From contig JAGGWN010000025.1 in the NCBI GenBank assembly GCA_021157415.1, positions 1 to 49,821 of the forward strand: DNA of 49,821 bases, in the 5' to 3' direction. Both the position numbers and the translations under genes were made by a program. A model generated the notes under the pieces. That model made no database searches, was not told the origin of the DNA, and saw nothing but the letters and a program-made list of their open reading frames with translations. Position 1 is the first letter of the stretch; each line of letters begins with the position of its first letter. Source of the DNA: Bacteroidales bacterium (GTDB lineage: Bacteria; Bacteroidota; Bacteroidia; Bacteroidales; VadinHA17). Positions 6,301-33,552 of this stretch are shown in pieces.

Positions 6301-7698
6301 CTGGTCATTGTATCTTCCCTGAAAGGTACTTATTACCTATATAACTATGGGGTAAAAAACGGCTCACTGAAATGGAAAAACGGTATGCCCTGGCCTTCCG
6401 ACAACCATGGCGGACATCTCTCACAGCCAGCCATCGTGGGAAACAGGCTGATGCTCAAACCCGGACTCTTCCGTATGGATACGGGAGAAAGACTGAATTA
6501 TGATGTGCCCAAAGCCGGCCATGGTTGTGCCTCTTATGCTCTTTCAGAGCAATCGGTTTTTTACCGGGGCGGAAGCGTCACCCAGTTCAATTTCGACACA
6601 CGCAAGTTCTCCAAATGGGAACGTCTGCGTCCCGACTGCTGGATCAGTACCATACCGGCACTTGGCATGGTGCTGTCACCAGAAGGAGGCGGCGGATGCT
6701 CCTGCGGTAACTGGTACGAGACCTCCATGGTCATGGCACCTAAATCCAGAGCCCCCGTCATGTTCTCGTTTGATGGTGACAGCCGCTTTACGGATACCCT
6801 GAGGGTTGGCCTGGTCCTGAAAAAGGGAGTCAAAGGAAAACTTTACTATACCCTGGATGGTTCGATGCCGGACAAGAACGCTTCTCCTTACTCCAGACCT
6901 GTCCTGCTGGATAAAAATACCGAGTTACGGGTTGCCCTTTATCTATCCAGAGGAGGCAGGGAAATAAAAATGATACGCAGCCGTTATTTTGAACGTTTGC
7001 GCCCCGCCCCGGTCATAGAACCACAGAACACTCTTAAAAAGGGAAAAAGAACCATACTACTCAAAAGAGTGGGCCATACAGGAACCATTCATTACACCCT
7101 GGATGGGAGCATTCCGGATCATAGATCACCTGTATATACCCACCGGATCGTCATCGATAAACCCGTCACAGTCAAGGCCGTTACTCTATGGAAGGATAAG
7201 AAAGGCCGGCCTTTCAAAAGTAAAGTAACTACCCTCAGCGTGCCGATCCCGGAAGTGATCCCTGCTGTGAAAGCAACCGTAAACCCCGGTCTGGTGGTAA
7301 ACTATTATGAAGGCGAATGGAAGCAAGTGCCTGACTTTGACCACATGAAAAGCATGAAGACGGCTGTTGTGAAGGAGATAAGCCTTGATCCTGCCAGGAA
7401 AACGGAACATTTCGGATTGTTGTTCACCGGGTATATCCGCATTCCTGAAGATGGTATCTATAAATTTTATCTTACCAGTGATGACGGCAGTAACCTGTAT
7501 ATCCATGGCAGGAAAATTATTAATAACGACGGAACTCACGGCATCCGTGAGAAGATGGGGCAGATCCCCCTGCAGGCAGGATTGCACCCCGTTAGGATAG
7601 AGTTTTTCCAGACGGTGACGAGCGTTACCTTGTCCTTGAAATGGGCAGGACCCTCCTTCGGAAAAGAAAATGTGCCTGCAGTTATTTTGTTTCATTAA
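3325..7698 (+). CDS. Giant lipoprotein: two PQQ-like beta-propellers, methyltransferase-like insert, chitobiase C-terminal-like repeats, PA14-like end
   Basis: This 1457-residue protein has a lipoprotein signal (hydrophobic 4-20, candidate lipidated Cys22). About residues 30-430 form PQQ/BamB-like beta-propeller blades ('GSDDGYVYCI', 'SGKLKWKF'). About 555-705 resemble a class I SAM-methyltransferase Rossmann fold, with a glycine-rich turn 'LSMGSGQLPVAL' followed by acidic strand 'DVIVLDGS'. A second propeller spans about 708-1125 and ends near a Cys-Ser-Cys-Gly motif (Cys1125, Cys1127). Two repeats of 'YYTLDGS-P' type (about 1146-1309) match chitobiase/hexosaminidase C-terminal modules. The end (about 1316-1456) looks like PA14 ('FTGYIRIPEDGIYKFYL', 'SDDGSNLYI'). 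It follows the ABC ATPase by 29 bases. Its function is unknown. The domains suggest a cell-surface or periplasmic glycan-facing scaffold. The methyltransferase-like part may be a non-enzymatic fold, as SAM is not expected outside the cytoplasm. Confidence 0.8.
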   Translation: MKRLFLFFVVISSCSLILFNACQQTRKATPNDWPQFKKDNYRSGVTPVAIFDNTFGLKWVYRAPQVPAPAWYGPAREDAYALSGPLPSMRDYDLAYSPVIVRDKWYYGSTSDDAVHCLSTKTGREEWIFITNGPVRIAPTYYKGNLYFGSDDGYVYCIRATSGKLKWKFSPSKSEQKLLNNGRLISFWPVRTGVMIEDNIAYFGASLIPWKKSWLCAVDAETGKVKGRQGTYVREAENVTFEGSMASSGDRLIQPQGRISPVFIDRRTGKIEGQLPGAGGCFVLVTPDKHIVHPETSRFKEIVDLQVDRKKPEYMSFKGGKEMVVSGDKSYVLSDHAISAYNRKTKEVLWVNKTYHAHRIIMADTVLFAGATDTVYAVSVTSGQPLWQGNVEGTVYAMAAGDSALFVSTGEGKIYCFARGGNETTGAKNKQVKGWKDPREEESRPLEFPLGPVVDIRDKHHIAIDFTTAKPTLCTLYWHSNNNIEKAVYKDPSPALQHHFEIPVRKDFVYSYRIEENGKMTKAYEYDNFFNYSVPGIKVAASWLSDKKINVYVDNLIKSSGIHKGLCLVLSMGSGQLPVALAQKTELDVIVLDGSSQKVQGFRKKLEKEGVYGRRLSAYTIQDFRNIPIQSDLADLVICNGNEYPADEVIRLTAPHGKAVYMKGKEKEKLIKQFTQQTRNANNLWQVTKDIVKVNESYIFILSKKEPASGGVWISEYGKPDNSAYGGASMWGTTSSEEFEIQWMGRPGPRFQADRNGRKPSPLAINGKLFVQGKERIAAIDAYNGTIVWTKWIPGFIRMNVVRDCSNWAADEKYIYAVKKEKLLVINQQNGSILTEVRVPGYPTGKYDWGYVGTYVGAPTGMVVGSAIPSHSAFVSFYGGWGWYDATHGPETDKVMSYNLFAIPAGGGKILWKYEHKPSMIINSTITLYDGKAFFVESATPKLTDKKRGGEHIFDKTYLVALDLNDGSLLWRKALDNKPGVSAYFMAAGRDRLVIVSSLKGTYYLYNYGVKNGSLKWKNGMPWPSDNHGGHLSQPAIVGNRLMLKPGLFRMDTGERLNYDVPKAGHGCASYALSEQSVFYRGGSVTQFNFDTRKFSKWERLRPDCWISTIPALGMVLSPEGGGGCSCGNWYETSMVMAPKSRAPVMFSFDGDSRFTDTLRVGLVLKKGVKGKLYYTLDGSMPDKNASPYSRPVLLDKNTELRVALYLSRGGREIKMIRSRYFERLRPAPVIEPQNTLKKGKRTILLKRVGHTGTIHYTLDGSIPDHRSPVYTHRIVIDKPVTVKAVTLWKDKKGRPFKSKVTTLSVPIPEVIPAVKATVNPGLVVNYYEGEWKQVPDFDHMKSMKTAVVKEISLDPARKTEHFGLLFTGYIRIPEDGIYKFYLTSDDGSNLYIHGRKIINNDGTHGIREKMGQIPLQAGLHPVRIEFFQTVTSVTLSLKWAGPSFGKENVPAVILFH

Positions 7699-7759
7699 AC
7701 ATGGTATGTATGGATTTTACCTTCCTGGATAAAGCTTTTGGTAATGTAAAAAGACAACC

Positions 7760-8803
7760 ATGAATAAGATTCTGTTTTTGATTCAGGTATCGGCGTTATT
7801 ATTTTCCGGACAAGCGCTTACGGGACAAACGGTAAGTTTACCCGATACCCTCCGGCAACAGATCCGCACCTACCTGGAAACCCGGTTTATGCCGATGTCG
7901 GCATGTCCGGGAAAGACTTTTGCCTCTTTCAGATTTCTTGGTAAATCGGATGAGGCACAGCCCGGATATGTTTATCTCTGGGTATATAAGGCCTGTTTTG
8001 TACGATCCTCCGAAGCACTTACCCGTAAGAACGCCGTAAGTCTGCCGGTACGACTTTCCTTTGCTTATCAACAGGGGAAAAGAATCCTTACGGTTCATGA
8101 TTTTCCTGGAGAAGGAACAGATTTTTCCAAGGATGTTCGTACATTGTTTCCACCGGAAATTCAGAAATATATCTTCGGAACGGAAAAATATCGTCGGGAC
8201 ATTCCTCTCTTGGAAAAACAAACACAAAAACTGGCTGAAGAATTTTTCAGCATCCATCCGGCCGGGAGACCGTATGACGCTGGGATAAGCTGGCACCAAT
8301 ACGATTTTGAGCCTGCCGGAATATGTCTTACCTGTCCGGAATCATGGAACCGGGATACCACCTCCACTTCTGTGAAGATAAGGCCTTTGGGCCTTCAGAT
8401 CTTTCCCTGGAAGGAAGGAGCAGCCCCGCTTCATCCCGTATTTTCTGCAAACCGGGTCCGGCTGGATGTTTATACAGGCAAACCTGGCATAGCCTGCTCA
8501 ACATATATCCATATGCCGGAAAAAATGGATAACCTGTCACTCTTCCGGAAAGAGATTGGTGTATTTTCCTGTACGGTACTGGAAGCCTCGGAAGGAGCTG
8601 CAGGAACCATTTATAAAAATCGTGTATATATTTTCACGCTGCCCGGCTCAGGCCAATGTGTTTTCTTCGATCTGAATTATTCGTTCAAAAGCGAGGGGGT
8701 TCATGAAGAATCCGGAAGACGGGATCATACATCCGCTTTTAAGGAAAAACAAACCATCCGGCTTACAGAGGAGATGATCCGATTACTGAAACCCCGTAAA
8801 TGA
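7760..8803 (+). CDS. Exported protein of unknown family
   Basis: This 347-residue protein begins with a clear Sec signal peptide (hydrophobic about residues 4-17, likely cut near 'ALTGQ'). I do not recognise the family. Several cysteines are scattered through the mature part, including pairs in 'PAGICLTCPE' and 'GIACSTY', which may form disulfides in the periplasm. No transmembrane segment follows the signal. It lies 61 bases after the giant lipoprotein and 58 bases before the next lipoprotein on the same strand, so the three are probably co-transcribed and part of one envelope system. A domain search is the only way to go further. Confidence 0.7.
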   Translation: MNKILFLIQVSALLFSGQALTGQTVSLPDTLRQQIRTYLETRFMPMSACPGKTFASFRFLGKSDEAQPGYVYLWVYKACFVRSSEALTRKNAVSLPVRLSFAYQQGKRILTVHDFPGEGTDFSKDVRTLFPPEIQKYIFGTEKYRRDIPLLEKQTQKLAEEFFSIHPAGRPYDAGISWHQYDFEPAGICLTCPESWNRDTTSTSVKIRPLGLQIFPWKEGAAPLHPVFSANRVRLDVYTGKPGIACSTYIHMPEKMDNLSLFRKEIGVFSCTVLEASEGAAGTIYKNRVYIFTLPGSGQCVFFDLNYSFKSEGVHEESGRRDHTSAFKEKQTIRLTEEMIRLLKPRK

Positions 8804-8861
8804 GGCGTTAATATTTTTGGAATGTGCAAAGGATAAGAATTTCAGAATTAAAATTAATTTT

Positions 8862-9938
8862 ATGCGTTTGATAAAATCCGGAGTAAGACACTGGATCATT
8901 TTTATAAGTCTTTTCTCCATGACTTTTCCTGCCATCTCCTGTCGTTATACGATTCGTGATATTGGCTACAGTTCCTTGAACCTGGAAACATATCTGCTTT
9001 ACCTGGAGTCCGATACCGTACAATATGGGCAGGTAGTGAAAGCATTCATACATCTGGGAGAAGTTTACTCTGCCGATGCCAACATACGTTACCGTCTGAC
9101 CCATACACCCGGACAAGCGCCGGAAATACAGATTCGAAACAGCCGCGGCATGATCCTGGAAAAACAGATGATACAAACACCGGAGGATGTCCGGGTGTTT
9201 TACAAACGGACCCTCTTTTCCCCTTTGCAGCAGATCCTTTCGCAACAGGTCGGCAATGTCTTTGCATTTATGGTTTGTTATTATGAGAAAGACAACAGGC
9301 AGATCAATGCACGCGTAGAAAGAACCCTTGAACAGTTCCGGAAAATAGCTCCTACGCTGGATAAGAAAGTATCTGAGGAAATAATGAAAATTCTGATCCC
9401 GGCCGGGAAACGGCAGGAAGAAGATCTCATCTTTAAGGCCATGGAACTGGATCCTGAAAACCCGGCACCTGTCATCATGATCCTGTACGGGCGGGGACGA
9501 CTGGTGGGAGACCCTCTGGTAGGAGAGGAGATCACGGTGGATCACCTCCTCAAACAATTGGTGATGCTGGGTACCGATTGTGAGTGCGGCATCGATCTCA
9601 GCCCACTGTTGAAACGAGCCATTCCTCTTTATTGGGATAATATAATGCGACAAGAGGTGACGGATATGCTGGGTTTCGATGTGGAGAATCCCATGACCAC
9701 CACTGAAATGGAAAGGATTCTCTCTAAAGAACCGCTGGAAACCGGCACCGCTGATCCTTCTTTTGCCCCACAGGTGATAAATCTGGACCAGAAGCTGGGC
9801 ACCATAGCAAATCAGCAGGAGGAACCCGTTACGGGGGATGGCATGAGTAAAACTTTACGTTATTCCCTGCTGTCCGGTGCCCTGCTATTCCTGCTTATCA
9901 TGGCCGGCGTGGTTATTATTCTGAAGCAAAAGCATTAA
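8862..9938 (+). CDS. Lipoprotein with CxC motif and C-terminal membrane anchor, unknown function
   Basis: The start at 8862 is preferred over an in-frame ATG at 8817 because it puts the hydrophobic signal at the N-terminus. The 358-residue product then has a lipobox-like 'AISC' with Cys27. The mature part opens with 'RDIGYSSLNLETYLLYL', is mostly helical, and holds 'TDCECGIDL', a CxC pair that could bind a metal or form a disulfide. A single hydrophobic helix near the C-terminus ('LLSGALLFLLIMAGVVIIL') is followed by 'KQKH', which would tail-anchor it in the inner membrane with the bulk in the periplasm. It closes the left-hand cluster. No family is recognised with certainty. Confidence 0.7.
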   Translation: MRLIKSGVRHWIIFISLFSMTFPAISCRYTIRDIGYSSLNLETYLLYLESDTVQYGQVVKAFIHLGEVYSADANIRYRLTHTPGQAPEIQIRNSRGMILEKQMIQTPEDVRVFYKRTLFSPLQQILSQQVGNVFAFMVCYYEKDNRQINARVERTLEQFRKIAPTLDKKVSEEIMKILIPAGKRQEEDLIFKAMELDPENPAPVIMILYGRGRLVGDPLVGEEITVDHLLKQLVMLGTDCECGIDLSPLLKRAIPLYWDNIMRQEVTDMLGFDVENPMTTTEMERILSKEPLETGTADPSFAPQVINLDQKLGTIANQQEEPVTGDGMSKTLRYSLLSGALLFLLIMAGVVIILKQKH

Positions 9939-26478: not shown

Positions 26479-26651
26479 AATCGTTCGTCGTTTTGATTAT
26501 GGGAATAAGATAGTCCATTCTCAGGAAAAAACGAAATTATGTAAGAAAATAACTAAAAGCTTCGGAAATATAATGCATTGCTACACACTTTTCCAGCCCG
26601 AGGGTGCAACCCGGATATAAAAATAATCCAGTATATTCATCTGAAAGTAAT

Positions 26652-26682
26652 TTTGTTTACATACGAAAATATATTACATTTG
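26652..26682 (+). promoter_or_regulatory. Promoter of the glycyl radical operon, with a candidate operator inside
   Basis: TTTG (26652-26655), 19 bases, then TACATTTG (26675-26682) is an exact match to the Bacteroidota promoter. The leader to the first ATG (26709) would be only about 20 bases. The arms ATACGAAA (26661-26668) and TTTGTAT (26680-26686) form an inverted repeat with one mismatch across the promoter. This is a natural place for the operon's own DeoR repressor to bind (inference). Confidence 0.8.
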
Positions 26683-26708
26683 TATATAAGAATCCTGCAC
26701 AGTAGAAA

Positions 26709-27599
26709 ATGATATTTAATATTCAGCGATTTTCAACACATGACGGCGAAGGCATCCGGACCCTGATCTTCTATAAAGGTTGTCCGCTTCATTGCCAATG
26801 GTGCAGCAATCCCGAAGGCATTTCATATGGCTACAGTATCCTGTACAACCAAAACCTTTGTAAAGATTTCGGTGAATGCATGGCCACTGAAAAAGAAGCA
26901 ATAGCCAGAACCAATAAACATGGTATCCGAATCGACCGGAAAAAGGTAACCCATCCGGAAAAATTAATCGATGTCTGCCCTGCGAAAGCGCTGACTGTTA
27001 GCGGCTCTAAGCTGGGTGTCAACGACTTGCTTCATGAAGTAGAAAAAGACACCCCTTTTTACAGTCATGGCGGAGGGGTTACCCTTTCAGGCGGAGAACC
27101 GTTGTCCCAGGGAGAAGAGCTGACCTCCCTCCTACGGGAACTGAAACACAAAAATATCAGCGTCAACATAGAGACATCCCTTCATGTAAATTGGAGCCAA
27201 GTGGAAAGATGCATTGATCTGACTGATACTTTCCTGGTGGATATGAAACATACCGACAAGGACAAATTCACACGTTTTACCCGGGGAGATGCGGCCCTGG
27301 TAATGAACAACCTGGTTAAACTTACCGAATCGGCAGCCAGGATTATTATACGTATCCCGGTAATTCCCGGGTTTAATCATTCGGAAAAAGAAATGAAACA
27401 GATCATTGATTTTATACATTCATTGAACCGTATCCACACCATTCATTTTTTACCCTACCATACGTTTGGTGTGGAAAAATACAAAATGCTGGGCATGAAG
27501 TATATTTTCGGACCTGAAAAACCGGTGCGGGATGATGAATTGACAACTTATATTCATTATGCACAATCCAAAGGATTTCAGACAAAAATCGGAGGTTAA
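26709..27599 (+). CDS. Glycyl-radical enzyme activating protein, YbiY-like radical SAM
   Basis: This 296-residue radical SAM enzyme should install the glycyl radical on the lyase encoded next. The cluster motif CxxxCxxC is Cys25-Cys29-Cys32 in 'KGCPLHCQWCSNPEG'. 'VTLSGGEPLSQG' and 'DTFLVDMKHTDKDKFTRFT' match the activase family. The end, 'IHFLPYHTFGVEKYKMLGMK', closely recalls E. coli YbiY. The ferredoxin-like insert has only three cysteines (51, 57, 90), fewer than the eight of two full auxiliary clusters. The start is fixed by 'MIFNIQRFSTHDGEGIRT', the standard opening. One base separates its stop from the lyase ATG, so the two are translationally coupled. Confidence 0.93.
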   Translation: MIFNIQRFSTHDGEGIRTLIFYKGCPLHCQWCSNPEGISYGYSILYNQNLCKDFGECMATEKEAIARTNKHGIRIDRKKVTHPEKLIDVCPAKALTVSGSKLGVNDLLHEVEKDTPFYSHGGGVTLSGGEPLSQGEELTSLLRELKHKNISVNIETSLHVNWSQVERCIDLTDTFLVDMKHTDKDKFTRFTRGDAALVMNNLVKLTESAARIIIRIPVIPGFNHSEKEMKQIIDFIHSLNRIHTIHFLPYHTFGVEKYKMLGMKYIFGPEKPVRDDELTTYIHYAQSKGFQTKIGG

Positions 27600-27600
27600 G

Positions 27601-30021
27601 ATGATTACGGAAAAACAACAGACCACTTTATCAAAAAGGATTTCCGATTTACGGGAAAAAGTGTTACGTGCAAAGCCTTCGGTATGCACCGAAAGGGCCA
27701 AGTTTTATACACAGATCTATCAGGCCAATGAAGATAAGCCCGTTATTGTCAAACGTGCACTGGCATTGGAGAAAACCCTGAAAAAGATGACGATTTTTAT
27801 TGACGAGGGCGAGCTTATCGTTGGAAATCAATCTTCTCAGCACAGGGCTGCTCCTATTTTTCCAGAATATGCCGTGGAATGGCTTTCCCGGGAGATGGAC
27901 AATCTGGATAAGCGTCCCGGAGATGCTTTTTTTATCACGGAAGATCATAAAAAGGAACTGCTTAAAATTGCCGGATGGTGGAAGGGAAAAGTGCTCTGGG
28001 ACCGGGGCAGGGCAAATATGTCGCAGGAATTACGTGATCTGCAGGACGCAGCAATCATCAAGGCTACCGGAAACCTTACCTCCGGCGACGGACACATTGC
28101 CGTGGATTACCCCCGGGTTCTCTCTGCAGGACTTGAGGGATACCTGCAGGAAATCAGATATTACCACCGGCAGGTAAAAAGATACGAACGGGAAGGTGTG
28201 AAGAAAGATCATTTTTACACCGCTTTGACAATTTCCGTCAAAGCGCTCCGGGCATTTATCCTGCGGTACCATGACCTGGCTTTGTCCATGAGCAAGCATG
28301 AAATAAATCCGCAAAGAAAAACGGAGTTGCTGACCATCGCTCAAAATTGTGAAATCATTGCAGAAAAACCTCCACAAAATTTTTACCAGGCCCTGCAATT
28401 AACTTATTTCATACACTTGTCGCTGCAGATAGAAAGCAACGGCCATTCTGTCTCCCTGGGCAGAATGGATCAGTATCTATTCCCCTATTACCAACACGAT
28501 CTTATCACCGGTAACATTACGAAAGATTTTGCTGCAGAATTACTTGAAAACACATGGATAAAACTATTGACAATCAACAAAATAAGACCCTGGTCACACA
28601 CCCGTTTTTCAGCCGGTGGACCTTTATATCAGAATGTTACCATAGGCGGGCAAACCTCCGACGGAAAAGATGCCGTTAACGACCTGAGTTTTCTGATCCT
28701 TGACACGGTCGGAAGGATGAGGCTTACACAACCCAATCTTTCTGTAAGGTTTCATAAAAACATAAACAATGATTTTATGATGGCCTGCATGCAGGTCATT
28801 GAAAAAGGTTTTGGTATGCCCTCTTTCAACAATGATGAGGTTGTCATTCCAGGATTGCTGAGACTGGGCGTAGAACCGCAAGATGCCTATGACTATTCGG
28901 CCATCGGATGTATTGAGATCGCCGTACCGGGAAAGTGGGGATATCGCTGTACGGGCATGAGTTTTCTGAATCTGATGAGGGTCTTCCTGGCTTCCTTATA
29001 TGACGGACTCGACCGGCAGTCCGGAAAAGTATTCCATAAAGGAACAGGTCATTTCAGGGACTTTTCCTCTTTTGAGGATGTGTTCAGGGCATGGCAGCAT
29101 CAGATAAAATACTACACCCGGAAAACCGTGGAAATTGATACCGCAGTGGATACGGCTCTGGAAGAGAATGTGCCGGATCTCCTTTGCTCGGCTTTTGTGG
29201 ATAGTTGTATATCCCGTGGAAAAACCATCAAAGAAGGGGGTTCCAAGTATGATTTTATCTCAGGTCTGCAAGTGGGGATTGCCAACCTGGGCAACTCGCT
29301 GGCAGCCATTAAAAAACTGGTTTTTGAAGACAAAGTGATCTCAAAAGAGCAACTCCTTGATGCCCTGGAGAATGACTATGAAGGAGAAGAAGGGGAAAAG
29401 ATCAGGCAGCTGCTGTTGAATTTTGCCCCGAAATACGGGAATGATGATGATTATGTTGATCTTCTTTTAAGAGATGCTTACAGGGAGTTTATCAGTGAAC
29501 TGGAACAGTATCACACCACCCGGTACAACCGCGGCCCCATAGGTTGCAAATACTATGCAGGTACTTCCAGCATTTCAGCCAATGTACCCAGCGGAGCGGT
29601 CGTTCCGGCCACCCCCGACGGCAGAAAAGCATTTACCCCGGTAGCCGAAGGGAGTTCCCCCTCTTCCGGAACCGACTTACAGGGCCCCACAGCCGTATTC
29701 AAATCGGTGGCAAAATTACCCACGGAAAAGATAATGGGCGGAGTTCTTCTGAATCAAAAACTTAGCCCGGCTACTATCCGGAAAGACCAGGATAAACAAA
29801 AACTGATATCTATCATCCGTACTTTTTTTGAAGACCTGAAAGGATGGCATGTACAGTACAACATCGTTTCCCGGGACACCCTCCTGGCAGCCAAAAAAGA
29901 TCCTGAGAAATACAGGGATCTGATCGTAAGGGTTGCCGGATATTCCGCTTTTTTTACTACTTTATCCCCCGATACACAGGACGATATCATTGCACGGACG
30001 GAACATTCATTAACTTTCTGA
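27601..30021 (+). CDS. Glycyl radical enzyme, YbiW-like (candidate 1,5-anhydroglucitol-6-phosphate lyase)
   Basis: The ATG at 27601, directly after the activase stop, gives 806 residues, close to E. coli YbiW (about 810). The catalytic centre is Cys437 in 'SAIGCIEIAVPGKWG' with Glu439 two residues on. This GCxE form belongs to the C-O/C-N lyase and dehydratase branch, not to pyruvate formate-lyase. The radical site is Gly780 in 'VRVAGYSAFFTTLSPD'. Segments 'PQDAYDYSAIGCIE', 'KWGYRCTGMSF' and 'GLQVGIANLGNSLAA' match YbiW as I recall it, more closely than PflD. YbiW opens the ring of 1,5-anhydroglucitol-6-phosphate to 1-deoxy-fructose-6-phosphate. The enzyme is cytoplasmic and destroyed by oxygen. 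The family call is firm; the substrate is inferred. Confidence 0.9.
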   Translation: MITEKQQTTLSKRISDLREKVLRAKPSVCTERAKFYTQIYQANEDKPVIVKRALALEKTLKKMTIFIDEGELIVGNQSSQHRAAPIFPEYAVEWLSREMDNLDKRPGDAFFITEDHKKELLKIAGWWKGKVLWDRGRANMSQELRDLQDAAIIKATGNLTSGDGHIAVDYPRVLSAGLEGYLQEIRYYHRQVKRYEREGVKKDHFYTALTISVKALRAFILRYHDLALSMSKHEINPQRKTELLTIAQNCEIIAEKPPQNFYQALQLTYFIHLSLQIESNGHSVSLGRMDQYLFPYYQHDLITGNITKDFAAELLENTWIKLLTINKIRPWSHTRFSAGGPLYQNVTIGGQTSDGKDAVNDLSFLILDTVGRMRLTQPNLSVRFHKNINNDFMMACMQVIEKGFGMPSFNNDEVVIPGLLRLGVEPQDAYDYSAIGCIEIAVPGKWGYRCTGMSFLNLMRVFLASLYDGLDRQSGKVFHKGTGHFRDFSSFEDVFRAWQHQIKYYTRKTVEIDTAVDTALEENVPDLLCSAFVDSCISRGKTIKEGGSKYDFISGLQVGIANLGNSLAAIKKLVFEDKVISKEQLLDALENDYEGEEGEKIRQLLLNFAPKYGNDDDYVDLLLRDAYREFISELEQYHTTRYNRGPIGCKYYAGTSSISANVPSGAVVPATPDGRKAFTPVAEGSSPSSGTDLQGPTAVFKSVAKLPTEKIMGGVLLNQKLSPATIRKDQDKQKLISIIRTFFEDLKGWHVQYNIVSRDTLLAAKKDPEKYRDLIVRVAGYSAFFTTLSPDTQDDIIARTEHSLTF

Positions 30022-30025
30022 ACCT

Positions 30026-30985
30026 ATGGGCAGAATCCTTTGCGGTGTGGATATTGGCGGTACAAAGTTTGCCATCGGACTTGTTGATGAAAAAGGCACA
30101 ATCATTGACAAGATTTACAGCCGGGACCATGTCGGAAAAAACGAAGAAGATCTGGTAACGTTGGTGACCGAAAACATCCGGGAGATCATGGCAAGAAACA
30201 GGTTGCAGGAAACAGATCTGCCCGGCCTGGGAATCGGGTTTGCCGGTCACATCCGTTACCGTGACGGGGTAGTCATCACCACTTCAAACCTGAAAGGGTT
30301 TAAGAACTATCCGCTGAGAGAAGCTTTCCAGACCCGGTTTAACACTCCCGTAAAACTGGACAACGACGCCAATGCACAAGCTTTTGGAGAATATAAATTC
30401 GGTGCCGGACAGGGGGTGGATGATATGGTCTTTCTCACCGTCAGCACAGGGATAGGCGCAGGCATAATCATCAATAAGAAACTTTACCGGGGCACAACCG
30501 GAACTGCCGGAGAGTTTGGCCACACCATTGTAGAACCCAAAAGCGATCTGGTCTGTACCTGCGGAAATCGCGGTTGTCTGATGGCCTGTGCCAGTGGCCT
30601 GGCTCTCCCCTCCCTGTACAAAAAAAAGCTAAAGGAAGGGAAAAAAAGCATACTGCCTCTTCCCCCCGATTATGACCTGTCCAAAATAGACGGCCGGATT
30701 TTGAAAAAAGGCCTTGATATAGGCGATCCTGTCTCCCGTGAGATTATCCTGGAGTGCGGATATTATATGGGTGTGGGCATCTATAATATCTTTCAGGCAC
30801 TCAATCCACCGCTTATCGTTTTGGGTGGAGGACTGACCAACTGGGGAGACCTGTACCTGGAGAAAATACAGTCTACTTTTTATGAACTGGCCCGCGATAT
30901 GATCTTTGATCCGGTGGAGATAAGCGTTTCAGAAATTCACGGCGATGCCGGTGTTATCGGTGCTGCCGCTTTAACCCTCGAATAA
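30026..30985 (+). CDS. ROK family sugar kinase with an altered GCLE motif
   Basis: This 319-residue cytoplasmic protein lacks an N-terminal helix-turn-helix, so it is a kinase rather than a ROK repressor. The phosphate-binding 'VDIGGTKFAIGLV' lies at residues 8-20 and the catalytic base Asp114 in 'LDNDANAQAFGEYKFGA'. Zinc ligands are His166 in 'EFGHTIVE' and the cysteines of 'CTCGNRGC' (177-184). The usual Glu of GCLE is Met186 (Cys-Leu-Met). In ROK hexokinases of known structure that Glu lies near the sugar O1/O2. It starts 4 bases after the lyase stop and 3 bases before the regulator, so it belongs to the same operon. A likely role is phosphorylating the sugar that the lyase then cuts. Confidence 0.9.
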   Translation: MGRILCGVDIGGTKFAIGLVDEKGTIIDKIYSRDHVGKNEEDLVTLVTENIREIMARNRLQETDLPGLGIGFAGHIRYRDGVVITTSNLKGFKNYPLREAFQTRFNTPVKLDNDANAQAFGEYKFGAGQGVDDMVFLTVSTGIGAGIIINKKLYRGTTGTAGEFGHTIVEPKSDLVCTCGNRGCLMACASGLALPSLYKKKLKEGKKSILPLPPDYDLSKIDGRILKKGLDIGDPVSREIILECGYYMGVGIYNIFQALNPPLIVLGGGLTNWGDLYLEKIQSTFYELARDMIFDPVEISVSEIHGDAGVIGAAALTLE

Positions 30986-30988
30986 ACG

Positions 30989-31735
30989 ATGTTGAACAAA
31001 AGACAAAATAAAATACTGGAGATTCTGGGTCAAAACCACCGGACCTCTGTGAACAGGCTTTCTGATATGCTGAAGGTTTCCTCGGTTACCATCCGGCAGG
31101 ACCTGAATATACTGGAAGCCGAAGGCTTCCTGAAGCGCATCCACGGAGGGGCCGTATTGACAGACGCAGACGACCTGACCAACCGGCTGGGCATTAATTA
31201 TGAAAAGAAACTCAGGATAGCACGTAAACTATCTTCTTTTGTACACGACGGAGCAACCATTCTCATCGAATCAGGTTCCGTAAATGTCCTTCTGGCCCGG
31301 GAACTGGTGAGAACAAAAAAAGTATCCATCATTACTACAAACGTTTATATTGCCAGACAGTTCCGTAAAAATGAGCAAGCCAATATCATTCTCCTCGGAG
31401 GGATTTATCAGCACGACAGCGAATCCCTGGTCGGGAAAATGACCAAAGTCTGCATCGATCAGATAAATATTGACAAGGCTTTTATGGGCATTGACGGTTA
31501 TACCACTGATGCCGGTTTTACATCCCGGGACCTGTTACGGGCTGAGGTATCCGCTTACATCATCGGAAAAGCACAGGATGTCTTTATCGTCTCAGACTCA
31601 AGCAAATTCGGAAAAAAAGAACTGACCAATATCTGTTATCCGGAAGATATACAGCACATAGCCACCGACAAAGGGCTGGCCTCCGTGTTTCAGGACGAAT
31701 TCAACAGCGCAGGCATTGATCTGATCCTGGCATAG
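30989..31735 (+). CDS. DeoR/GlpR-family transcriptional regulator
   Basis: This 248-residue protein has an N-terminal DeoR helix-turn-helix (residues about 5-58: 'RQNKILEILGQ', 'VSSVTIRQDLNILEAEGFL', 'RIHGGAVL'). A DeoR sugar-phosphate sensor domain follows (about 75-235), with 'FMGIDGYTTDAGFTSRDLL' and 'DVFIVSDSSKFGKKEL'. Members are usually repressors released by a phosphorylated sugar, here perhaps the kinase product or the lyase product. It is the last gene of the operon, 3 bases after the kinase stop. It probably controls the operon's own promoter. Confidence 0.92.
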   Translation: MLNKRQNKILEILGQNHRTSVNRLSDMLKVSSVTIRQDLNILEAEGFLKRIHGGAVLTDADDLTNRLGINYEKKLRIARKLSSFVHDGATILIESGSVNVLLARELVRTKKVSIITTNVYIARQFRKNEQANIILLGGIYQHDSESLVGKMTKVCIDQINIDKAFMGIDGYTTDAGFTSRDLLRAEVSAYIIGKAQDVFIVSDSSKFGKKELTNICYPEDIQHIATDKGLASVFQDEFNSAGIDLILA

Positions 31736-31857: not shown

Positions 31858-31886
31858 AAAAAAGCCCGGCAAAACCGGGCTTTTTA
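31858..31886. terminator. Bidirectional terminator between the glycyl radical operon and the cold-shock gene
   Basis: GCCCGG (31864-31869) and CCGGGC (31875-31880) form a strong stem around CAAAA, flanked by A-runs on the left and T-runs on the right. It can therefore end the plus-strand operon and the minus-strand csp gene. Confidence 0.9.
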
Positions 31887-32190: not shown

Positions 32191-33552
32191 ATGCACCTTC
32201 CGGCCTGGTACATCCTGTTTGTATTGATCTCTGCGGTTGCTTTGCTGCTGGTACTGGTTCTGAAATTACGTATTAACGCTTTCATCGTCCTGCTGATCAC
32301 GGCCATATATGTAGGTATCCTGTCAGGTATGCCTTTGCAGAAGGTATTGGACAGCATACGGGAAGGGATGGGCAACACCCTGGGATTTGTAGCCATTGTG
32401 GTGGGCCTTGGAGCCATTTTCGGACAAATCCTCGAGAGTTCGGGCGGCGCCGAGTCGCTGGCCCGGGGACTGATCGGCAAGTTCGGAAAAGACAAAGCCT
32501 CCTGGGCTATGACCATCACGGGCTTCCTGGTCGCCATACCTGTTTTTCTGGATGTGGGATTTATCCTGCTGGTGCCGCTGGTCTATTCCCTCTCCCGGGA
32601 TACCAAAAAGTCATTGTTATACTACGGGATTCCCCTGCTGGCAGGCCTGGCTGTCACCCACAGTTTTATTCCCCCCACCCCTGGTCCCGTGGCGGTAGCG
32701 GATATCCTTCAGGTACCTCTGGGATGGGTTATTCTCTTCGGCTTTATTCTTGGTATTCCTACCGCCATCCTGGCAGGACCTGTCTTCGGAAAATATATCG
32801 CAAAAAAGATCAATGTACCGCCACCGGATTACTTTTTATCAGACCAGACACCCGTCAAAGACAAGCTGCTACCTTCTTTCCGCCTGACAGCCATCATCAT
32901 CGGGATCCCTTTGTTTCTGATCCTGCTGAATACATTCACCACCCTGATGGTAAAGACTGCTGCGGTCCCATCATCTTTTTTAACGGATCTGCTCATCTTT
33001 CTGGGCCATCCTTATTCAGCCCTGCTGCTGGCTACCTTGCTGGCCATGTATCTCCTGGGGATAAGAAGGGGACTGTCCAGCCGTAAGATACAGGACCTGA
33101 GCGTAAAAGCGTTGGCCCCTGCCGGAATAATCATCCTCATCACCGGAGCCGGCGGAGTGCTGAAACAAGTTCTGGTTGACAGCGGAATAGGAAAAGTTAT
33201 TGCCGATTCCATGGCATCCTCTCCCCTCTCTCCCATTATCCTGGCCTGGCTGCTGGCAGCCGTGGTACGCATCACCCAGGGTTCTGCCACCGTGGCGATG
33301 ATCACCGCTGCAGGAATCATGGCTCCCATTCTTCAGGAAACACCCCTGAATGAACCCAATATGGCTCTGGTGGTCATTGCCATCGCTTCAGGTGCCACCA
33401 TCCTCTCCCATGTCAATGACAGCGGTTTCTGGCTGGTAGGAAAATATTTCGGAATCGATGAAAAACAAACCTTGCAATCCTGGACTGTTATGGAAACCAT
33501 TATCGCCGTTTCCGGTCTCCTCCTTACACTCATCGCCAGCCTGGTCATCTAA
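32191..33552 (+). CDS. GntP family permease
   Basis: This 453-residue inner-membrane transporter has about 12 or more hydrophobic segments. GntP family features are seen: 'GFVAIVVGLGAIFGQILESSGGAE' type region near residues 65-90, 'AIPVFLDVGFILLVPLVY' (about 113-130), 'HSFIPPTPGPVAVADIL' (about 154-170) and 'SHVNDSGFWLVGKYFG' (about 408-423). Members import gluconate, related sugar acids, fructuronate or glycerate with protons. It has its own promoter but lies just 450 bases after the glycyl radical operon. It may supply the sugar for that pathway, though a neutral anhydrohexitol would be an unusual substrate for this family. Confidence 0.92.
   Translation: MHLPAWYILFVLISAVALLLVLVLKLRINAFIVLLITAIYVGILSGMPLQKVLDSIREGMGNTLGFVAIVVGLGAIFGQILESSGGAESLARGLIGKFGKDKASWAMTITGFLVAIPVFLDVGFILLVPLVYSLSRDTKKSLLYYGIPLLAGLAVTHSFIPPTPGPVAVADILQVPLGWVILFGFILGIPTAILAGPVFGKYIAKKINVPPPDYFLSDQTPVKDKLLPSFRLTAIIIGIPLFLILLNTFTTLMVKTAAVPSSFLTDLLIFLGHPYSALLLATLLAMYLLGIRRGLSSRKIQDLSVKALAPAGIIILITGAGGVLKQVLVDSGIGKVIADSMASSPLSPIILAWLLAAVVRITQGSATVAMITAAGIMAPILQETPLNEPNMALVVIAIASGATILSHVNDSGFWLVGKYFGIDEKQTLQSWTVMETIIAVSGLLLTLIASLVI

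Follow-up and report, generated by a model that had tools for sequence, protein, structure and literature searches.

How might a bacterium that yields no signal for enzyme I of the phosphotransferase system (PTS) make use of an anhydro-sugar? 1,5-Anhydroglucitol occurs in nature, and in E. coli anhydroglycolysis the downstream steps are those of FsaA and GldA. The E. coli lyases YbiW and PflD take a PTS-phosphorylated substrate and open its ring to give 1-deoxyfructose 6-phosphate, according to a 2025 review (PMC12441222). Here we analyse a four-gene locus in a 49,821-nucleotide stretch of a Bacteroidales bacterium (contig JAGGWN010000025.1, positions 1–49,821, all of which we call the window), from a genome of 3.275 Mb in 128 contigs with completeness rated at 100%. 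On balance we think it probable that these genes encode a version of E. coli anhydroglycolysis that depends on a kinase: a DeoR-autoregulated operon with which a 1,5-anhydrohexitol is used anaerobically, 1,5-anhydroglucitol being the most likely substrate and 1,5-anhydromannitol a possible one.

What is the locus made of? Four genes on the + strand span positions 26709–31735 with intergenic gaps of 1, 4 and 3 bases; both this layout and the labels given to the genes in an earlier note, made from the sequence alone, are reproduced by open reading frames and domain scans. The YbiY-like glycyl radical enzyme activase, a radical S-adenosylmethionine protein (26709–27599), matches TIGR02494 with 313 bits (cut-off 174), and the 806-residue glycyl radical lyase (27601–30021) matches TIGR01774 with 1021 bits (cut-off 678). 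The ROK kinase, our proposed 1,5-anhydrohexitol 6-kinase (30026–30985), matches PF00480 with 231 bits (cut-off 22.9) and shows no DNA-binding domain in the Pfam scan. The DeoR-family regulator (30989–31735) combines an HTH_DeoR domain with DeoRC (PF00455, 146 bits, cut-off 31.8). A longer lyase reading frame is possible from 27559; the start at 27601 is favoured, since in many relatives the tblastn match starts from its residue 1. The four genes form a conserved and probably regulated operon.

Is this arrangement kept elsewhere? We compared 80 of 157 related loci (given L numbers below; genomes carry G numbers), and the counts given here cover 36 loci from Bacteroidota, 14 from other lineages outside the Gammaproteobacteria and 30 from Gammaproteobacteria. 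The gene immediately after the lyase is a ROK in all 31 Bacteroidota loci with at least 1000 bp there, and the full four-gene order, whose recurrence the earlier note had wanted mapped, is found in 15 of the 22 with room on both sides. The linkage of lyase and ROK exceeds chance. Among the 14 other non-gammaproteobacterial loci, the ROK gene is directly next to the lyase in six and somewhere in the locus in 11; it is present without adjoining the lyase in L030, L035, L047 and L050. A phmmer search with the window ROK (E 1e-10) matched no ROK in the 30 gammaproteobacterial loci, 28 of which carry fsaA or fsaB. The unit is rare and patchy within its own order, yet occurs in several phyla: a lyase of at least 75% identity is present in 8 of 393 genomes of the order, the window's included (two fragments, one with an internal stop), and the next-best matches lie at 41–42% identity and lower.

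What kind of glycyl radical enzyme is the lyase? In a search against solved structures its best matches are YbiW and an 811-residue homologue, 6xs4 (1032–1039 bits), followed at a distance by glycerol dehydratase (626 bits) and PflD (528 bits), so that YbiW is its nearest characterised sequence, in keeping with the earlier note. Alignment gives 58.3% identity with E. coli YbiW (468/803), 39.2% with PflD and 35.5% with the hydroxyproline dehydratase of its own genome. It has the marks of a glycyl radical eliminase: the catalytic CxE motif (C437-I438-E439, 28909–28917, + strand), the glycyl radical residue G780 (29938–29940, + strand) with the C-terminal RVAGYS motif, and a paired activase. Residues H333, N379, R383, C437 and E439 are invariant in 81 of 81 YbiW-type rows; PflD keeps Asn379 but carries Ser in place of His333.

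Could the enzyme instead be a formate acetyltransferase, a glycerol or diol dehydratase, or a hydroxyproline dehydratase that stands beside a kinase by accident? The name of family TIGR01774, formate C-acetyltransferase/glycerol dehydratase, would suit such an activity, but the lyase stays under the cut-off of every curated equivalog that it matches, among them HypD (576/1100), CutC (503/1050), HpsG (586/1000) and the PflD-type PRK09983 (625/1109). Moreover, the genome has a separate trans-4-hydroxy-L-proline dehydratase, HypD, as its second glycyl radical enzyme (G000:C11:26231-28594, L002), which scores 1212 bits against the cut-off of 1100. We regard an unrelated activity as very improbable.

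The position of the lyase was then read from a tree built quickly under LG+G4 from 68 rows, which took in 13 of the 30 gammaproteobacterial loci plus E. coli and excluded L021, L025 and L043 as truncated or split. The 48 non-gammaproteobacterial rows, the window's among them, form one group that is sister to the 14 gammaproteobacterial YbiW rows; the split has a support of 100 (Shimodaira-Hasegawa-like approximate likelihood ratio test), while the placement of the long outgroup branches is unsure. An Enterococcus lyase and a Chloroflexota lyase branch outside both groups. The earlier note had named a place outside the YbiW clade, or different pocket residues, as what would speak against its assignment. 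Here the outcome is divided: the catalytic residues are intact, while the lyase falls outside the gammaproteobacterial YbiW clade as its sister and the probable pocket loop, described below, is different.

Does the kinase tell us anything about the substrate? The window ROK keeps the DxGGT motif, the catalytic Asp in DNDAN, the ExGH and CxCGxxGCx motifs and, in alignment, the Asn-Asp, Glu and His contacts to the sugar. Its departure from the family lies at the last position of the motif E163-x-GH166...CTCGNRGCLM186 (30512–30583, + strand), where Met186 takes the place of the usual acid (Glu or Asp). This GCxM form, which closes the zinc motif, is found in 46 of 46 ROKs from lyase loci (the window, 44 loci and a Chloroflexota plasmid). 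For comparison, we assembled a control of 34 loci with one ROK each, namely the top-scoring ROKs among those listed in 60 genomes from the order together with the window's own and the four others of its genome, a choice biased toward high-scoring ROKs. The control holds 30 with Glu, two with Met and two without the motif; every other motif-bearing ROK thus has Glu (30 of 30), and both Met types are linked to a lyase, one being the window's own and one adjoining a lyase in G057.

Five residues of human N-acetylmannosamine kinase bind the sugar, and H569 and E588 of this motif are two of them (PMC2742894). In NagK, D187 engages the 1'-OH of the sugar, and D187N lowers kcat/KM for N-acetylglucosamine from 2.1 to 0.26 (PMC10031466); counting along the alignment of the 7p7i chain, D187 is the acid of GCID. 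Because the GCxM ROKs have lost the acid whose NagK equivalent binds the 1-OH, the simplest reading of Met186 is a substrate that has no hydroxyl at C1, for example a 1,5-anhydrohexitol. For the ROK, AlphaFold run on the single sequence gave a model of low quality (mean predicted local distance difference test score 37), which was set aside.

These data also bear on a salvage or detoxification role, in which a side activity of glucokinase would make inhibitory 1,5-anhydroglucitol 6-phosphate (AG6P), the lyase would clear it, and the linked ROK would be an ordinary glucokinase. AG6P is indeed named as a hexokinase inhibitor in PMC10439028, and the best NCBIfam match of the window ROK is ROK_glcA, at 223 bits and below the cut-off of 260. 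However, the 1-OH-binding acid is gone in all 46 lyase-locus ROKs, which would be unexpected for a glucokinase, and the genome holds four other ROKs, two of them with a full GCLE motif. Detoxification therefore seems to us improbable, and we continue with a kinase dedicated to the pathway.

Is there another source of the 6-phosphate? PF02896 has no match in the genome, whereas 14 of 14 control genomes match; with no PTS enzyme I signal, the kinase is therefore the expected source. The earlier idea of a dedicated kinase is strengthened by this result and by the fit of Met186 to a substrate without a C1 hydroxyl. The same absence of PEP-utilizers_C (PF02896) means that the genome has no pyruvate phosphate dikinase or phosphoenolpyruvate synthase of that type, although all 14 controls have one.

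How would such an operon be controlled? A Bacteroidota-type promoter, TTTG-N19-TAcATTTG, lies at 26652–26682 on the + strand. The promoter claimed in the earlier note is thus present, though such matches are not rare: there are four on the + and two on the − strand of the window, the operon's own included, and the exact pattern occurs in 10 of the 38 upstream regions surveyed. Overlapping it is a predicted 34-base DeoR operator (26635–26668, + strand) that begins 74 bases upstream of the activase start, agrees with 29 of 34 consensus positions and is built of two half-sites, of which the second is a palindrome of the TTTCATWYGAAA type in the promoter spacer. Scoring covered the window and 37 of the 49 loci L003–L051, those in which an activase start was found by pattern. 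The mean best score over these 38 regions is 26.8 of 34, against 20.0 in shuffles, and is somewhat favoured because part of these regions also went into the consensus; scores of at least 26 are reached in 27 of the 38 and in 0.03% of shuffles. The predicted operator sits at the same place in the Bacillota loci L030, L035 and L039 and in the Spirochaetota locus L036.

Does the site go with the regulator? After four of the 37 scored loci were left out for too little downstream sequence, a score of at least 24 was found in 26 of 26 loci with a DeoR gene versus one of seven without (L028; Fisher p 6e-6, uncorrected for relatedness). This co-occurrence points to control of the operon by its own DeoR protein through the conserved predicted operator, and the regulated module put forward earlier gains from it. 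The operon's own site is the sole match in the genome with two mismatches. No second convincing operator emerged from the regulon search of the genome, which gave six further three-mismatch matches versus three for a reversed control pattern. One of them (L097) was dismissed as lying inside a long open reading frame, by eye an ATP-binding cassette (ABC) exporter; the other five were only rescored, L100 among them reaching 27/34. This operator search, which was not exhaustive, brought to light no hidden aldolase or transporter in the genome.

Downstream of the operon, a hairpin with a T run (AAAAAGCCCGG-CAAAA-CCGGGCTTTTT, 31858–31885, + strand), read directly and not returned by the terminator scan, is a likely terminator before a GntP-family gluconate-type transporter gene (32191–33552). 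We do not claim this gene for the operon, since it lies beyond the hairpin and is preceded by its own promoter match. Among Bacteroidota loci GntP recurs downstream only in the close relatives L005 and L010, and there is a weak match near ybiW in Vibrio tubiashii (L055).

Several observations weigh against the proposed variant of anhydroglycolysis. The genome, rated 100% complete, has no match to the FsaA family (PF00923, TAL_FSA, which holds transaldolase and FsaA), whereas 10 of 14 controls match, Bacteroides ihuae included. No GldA was found by PF00465, the only such protein of the genome being closest to the YqhD-type PRK15138 and below its cut-off. Clustering of neighbouring genes in Bacteroidota found no transporter conserved beside the operon and no conserved aldolase; the typed clusters showed only lineage-specific synteny (gyrase, TPR, thioredoxin-like, Mg-chelatase-like and others). 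DeoR is lacking in six of the 22 Bacteroidota loci that extend far enough to either side. Between fsaA and ybiY the operator threshold is reached in only four of 30 gammaproteobacterial loci (L070, L075, L081 and L082), and the ybiW locus of E. coli falls short of it. The Met-type ROKs are a single group in the ROK tree (support 94; for L051, whose ROK is part of a fused reading frame, the final 330 residues were used), because of which the Glu-to-Met change counts as one old event kept across phyla and not as repeated convergence. Finally, the lyase loop at 330–336 departs from that of YbiW, fixed positions included; the changes fall at 330, 331 and 334–336.

With neither an FsaA nor a GldA match in the genome, and no conserved linked transporter, the earlier description of a complete module is not supported; its largest gap is what becomes of the lyase product. 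Carriers of the unit vary in this respect: some PF00923 protein is present in 30 of 50 carrier-locus genomes and absent from 20, whose completeness was not given, and in four of seven high-quality carriers of the order sample, which overlaps the set of 50 (in G408 and G226 the places coincide with those in G001 and G005). Four carrier PF00923 proteins were classified: two are FsaA-type (one above the cut-off, one just below), one is above the transaldolase cut-off and one is below all. Other aldolases of the genome are DeoC, its one PF01791 protein (158 bits, cut-off 117), and one class II fructose-bisphosphate aldolase; neither was assigned to the pathway. Elsewhere in the genome, L085 390-1457 presumably encodes a protein that by its motif resembles anhydro-N-acetylmuramic acid kinase, directly before the only PF00465 alcohol dehydrogenase (1477–2616).

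Outside the Bacteroidota, sugar ABC transporter clusters are common to the spirochaete loci L036, L042, L044 and L047 (typed in L042), and a ribose-type ABC transporter to the Bacillota loci L035 and L039 and the Spirochaetota loci L050 and L054 (typed in L035 and L039). Such transporters match what non-PTS intake would require.

Could the difference in the lyase reflect a different sugar? The loop R329-F336 reads RPWSHTRF (28585–28608, + strand) where YbiW has RSGSHSKA. Outside the Gammaproteobacteria it follows R-P/S-W-S-H-T-R-F/Y, with Trp331 in 49 of 50 rows (Ser in L054), Thr334 in 50 of 50 and Phe or Tyr336 in 49 of 50; the gammaproteobacterial rows have Gly (31/31), Ser (31/31) and Ala (30/31; Ala or Thr overall) at these positions. 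In HypD, residues S334, D339 and F340 contact or shape the substrate site (PMC7077986). Because the same lyase stretch aligns with these three residues, the loop 329–336 probably lines the substrate pocket. A role for R329 as phosphate ligand was weighed and abandoned, as glycerol and diol dehydratases also carry Arg there. Nor could specificity for 1,5-anhydroglucitol or 1,5-anhydromannitol be told from common residues: over 27 fixed differences between the window clade and the gammaproteobacterial rows, PflD sides consistently with neither.

The fixed loop differences would suit the same chemistry on another C1-unsubstituted or C1-blocked sugar, such as a 1,5-anhydrohexitol epimer of the allitol or galactitol type or a related compound. 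The kinase would phosphorylate that sugar and the lyase open a ring of another configuration; the product would then not be 1-deoxyfructose 6-phosphate and FsaA would be unneeded, in agreement with the lack of PF00923 matches in this genome and in the 20 carrier genomes of ungiven completeness. A distant Chloroflexota plasmid (L117 5484-11325, CP069395.1) hints at other epimers as well: it joins a lyase of 44% identity, a GCxM ROK and an activase to an allulose-6-phosphate-epimerase-like gene (126 bits, cut-off 271), with an annotated D-allose transport cluster adjoining. Against this stand the 58% overall identity to YbiW and the H333 and N379 shared with it. We consider another epimer unlikely, though a good deal less so than either detoxification or an unrelated glycyl radical enzyme, and keep 1,5-anhydroglucitol as the preferred substrate.

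How, then, might the operon work? We infer the chemical steps and the action of the regulator from what the sequence offers: gene order, motifs, clades, operator conservation, and the lack of PTS enzyme I and TAL_FSA matches. The sugar would enter the cell through some transporter, and the ROK would phosphorylate O6 with ATP, standing in for the PTS of E. coli, with Met186 in place of the acid that would bind the C1 hydroxyl. The activase would install a radical on Gly780 of the lyase, and Cys437 would abstract a hydrogen from the 6-phosphate; breakage of the ring C-O bond would give a 1-deoxy-ketohexose 6-phosphate, which from AG6P or 1,5-anhydromannitol 6-phosphate would be 1-deoxyfructose 6-phosphate. 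A non-FsaA aldolase or other route may then process this product. The DeoR regulator would occupy the promoter until an inducer, perhaps a sugar phosphate, binds.

How far does the operon resemble known systems? With E. coli YbiY-YbiW it shares an activase and a YbiW-type lyase with common catalytic and YbiW-signature residues; it differs in having a ROK and not the PTS, in giving no FsaA, GldA or PTS enzyme I match, and in its distinct loop and sister clade. The gammaproteobacterial ybiW loci resemble it in a DeoR gene after ybiW (22 of 30) and in the related operator of the four loci named above. E. coli PflD-PflC, which by gene order stands with Frw PTS genes, FsaB and GldA, belongs to the same chemistry class, acting on an anhydrohexitol 6-phosphate (PMC12441222); that system is PTS-fed, however, the lyases are 39% identical, and PflD has Ser at the His333 of YbiW types. 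ROK glucokinases and NagK/NanK share with the window ROK the ATP-site motif, the catalytic Asp, the Asn/Glu/His sugar contacts and the zinc motif, but their 1-OH-engaging Glu or Asp is Met here. The regulator is like YciT and SrlR in its HTH_DeoR and DeoRC domains and falls below the curated cut-offs of both (230/450 and 152/350).

A wider proposal is that the lyase-locus ROKs are a new subfamily of 1,5-anhydrohexitol 6-kinases marked by Met. With the YbiW-sister lyase and its own pocket loop, they would make up a PTS-independent anhydro-sugar pathway across Bacteroidota, Spirochaetota, Bacillota and Planctomycetota, with a distant Chloroflexota form, ending in this lineage in an FsaA-unrelated aldolase or other route. 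Taken as a whole we hold this tentatively, at a little short of an even chance. A literature search that left out most subscription papers gave, among the papers listed, none on a ROK-fed version of the pathway. If true, the kinase-fed version would extend anaerobic anhydro-sugar use to lineages without the PTS, provide a one-residue kinase marker searchable in any genome, and expose the missing enzyme, the aldolase, as a search target.

Some relatives show further variations. In the Spirochaetota locus L042 a PflD-like lyase (− strand, 138–2570) and a YbiW-sister lyase (6995–9397) with ROK and DeoR genes are separated by a sugar ABC transporter. RmlD-like short-chain reductases of one cluster (the L042 member typed) adjoin the lyase in L042 (2745–3638), L047 (9591–10553) and L049 (276–1124), loci of Spirochaetota and of a member of the Planctomycetota. 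A Spirochaeta locus (L045 6671-8026) encodes a 452-residue protein, by eye an FAD/NAD-dependent oxidoreductase, that begins at the lyase stop codon and matches no NCBIfam family at E 1e-15. An Enterococcus raffinosus megaplasmid (L116, NZ_CP072889.1) has a lyase of 53% identity, with two DeoR genes and genes for PTS EIIA/EIIB/EIIC-GAT nearby; the loop of this lyase, RSQSHTLS, is a third type, here in a PTS setting.

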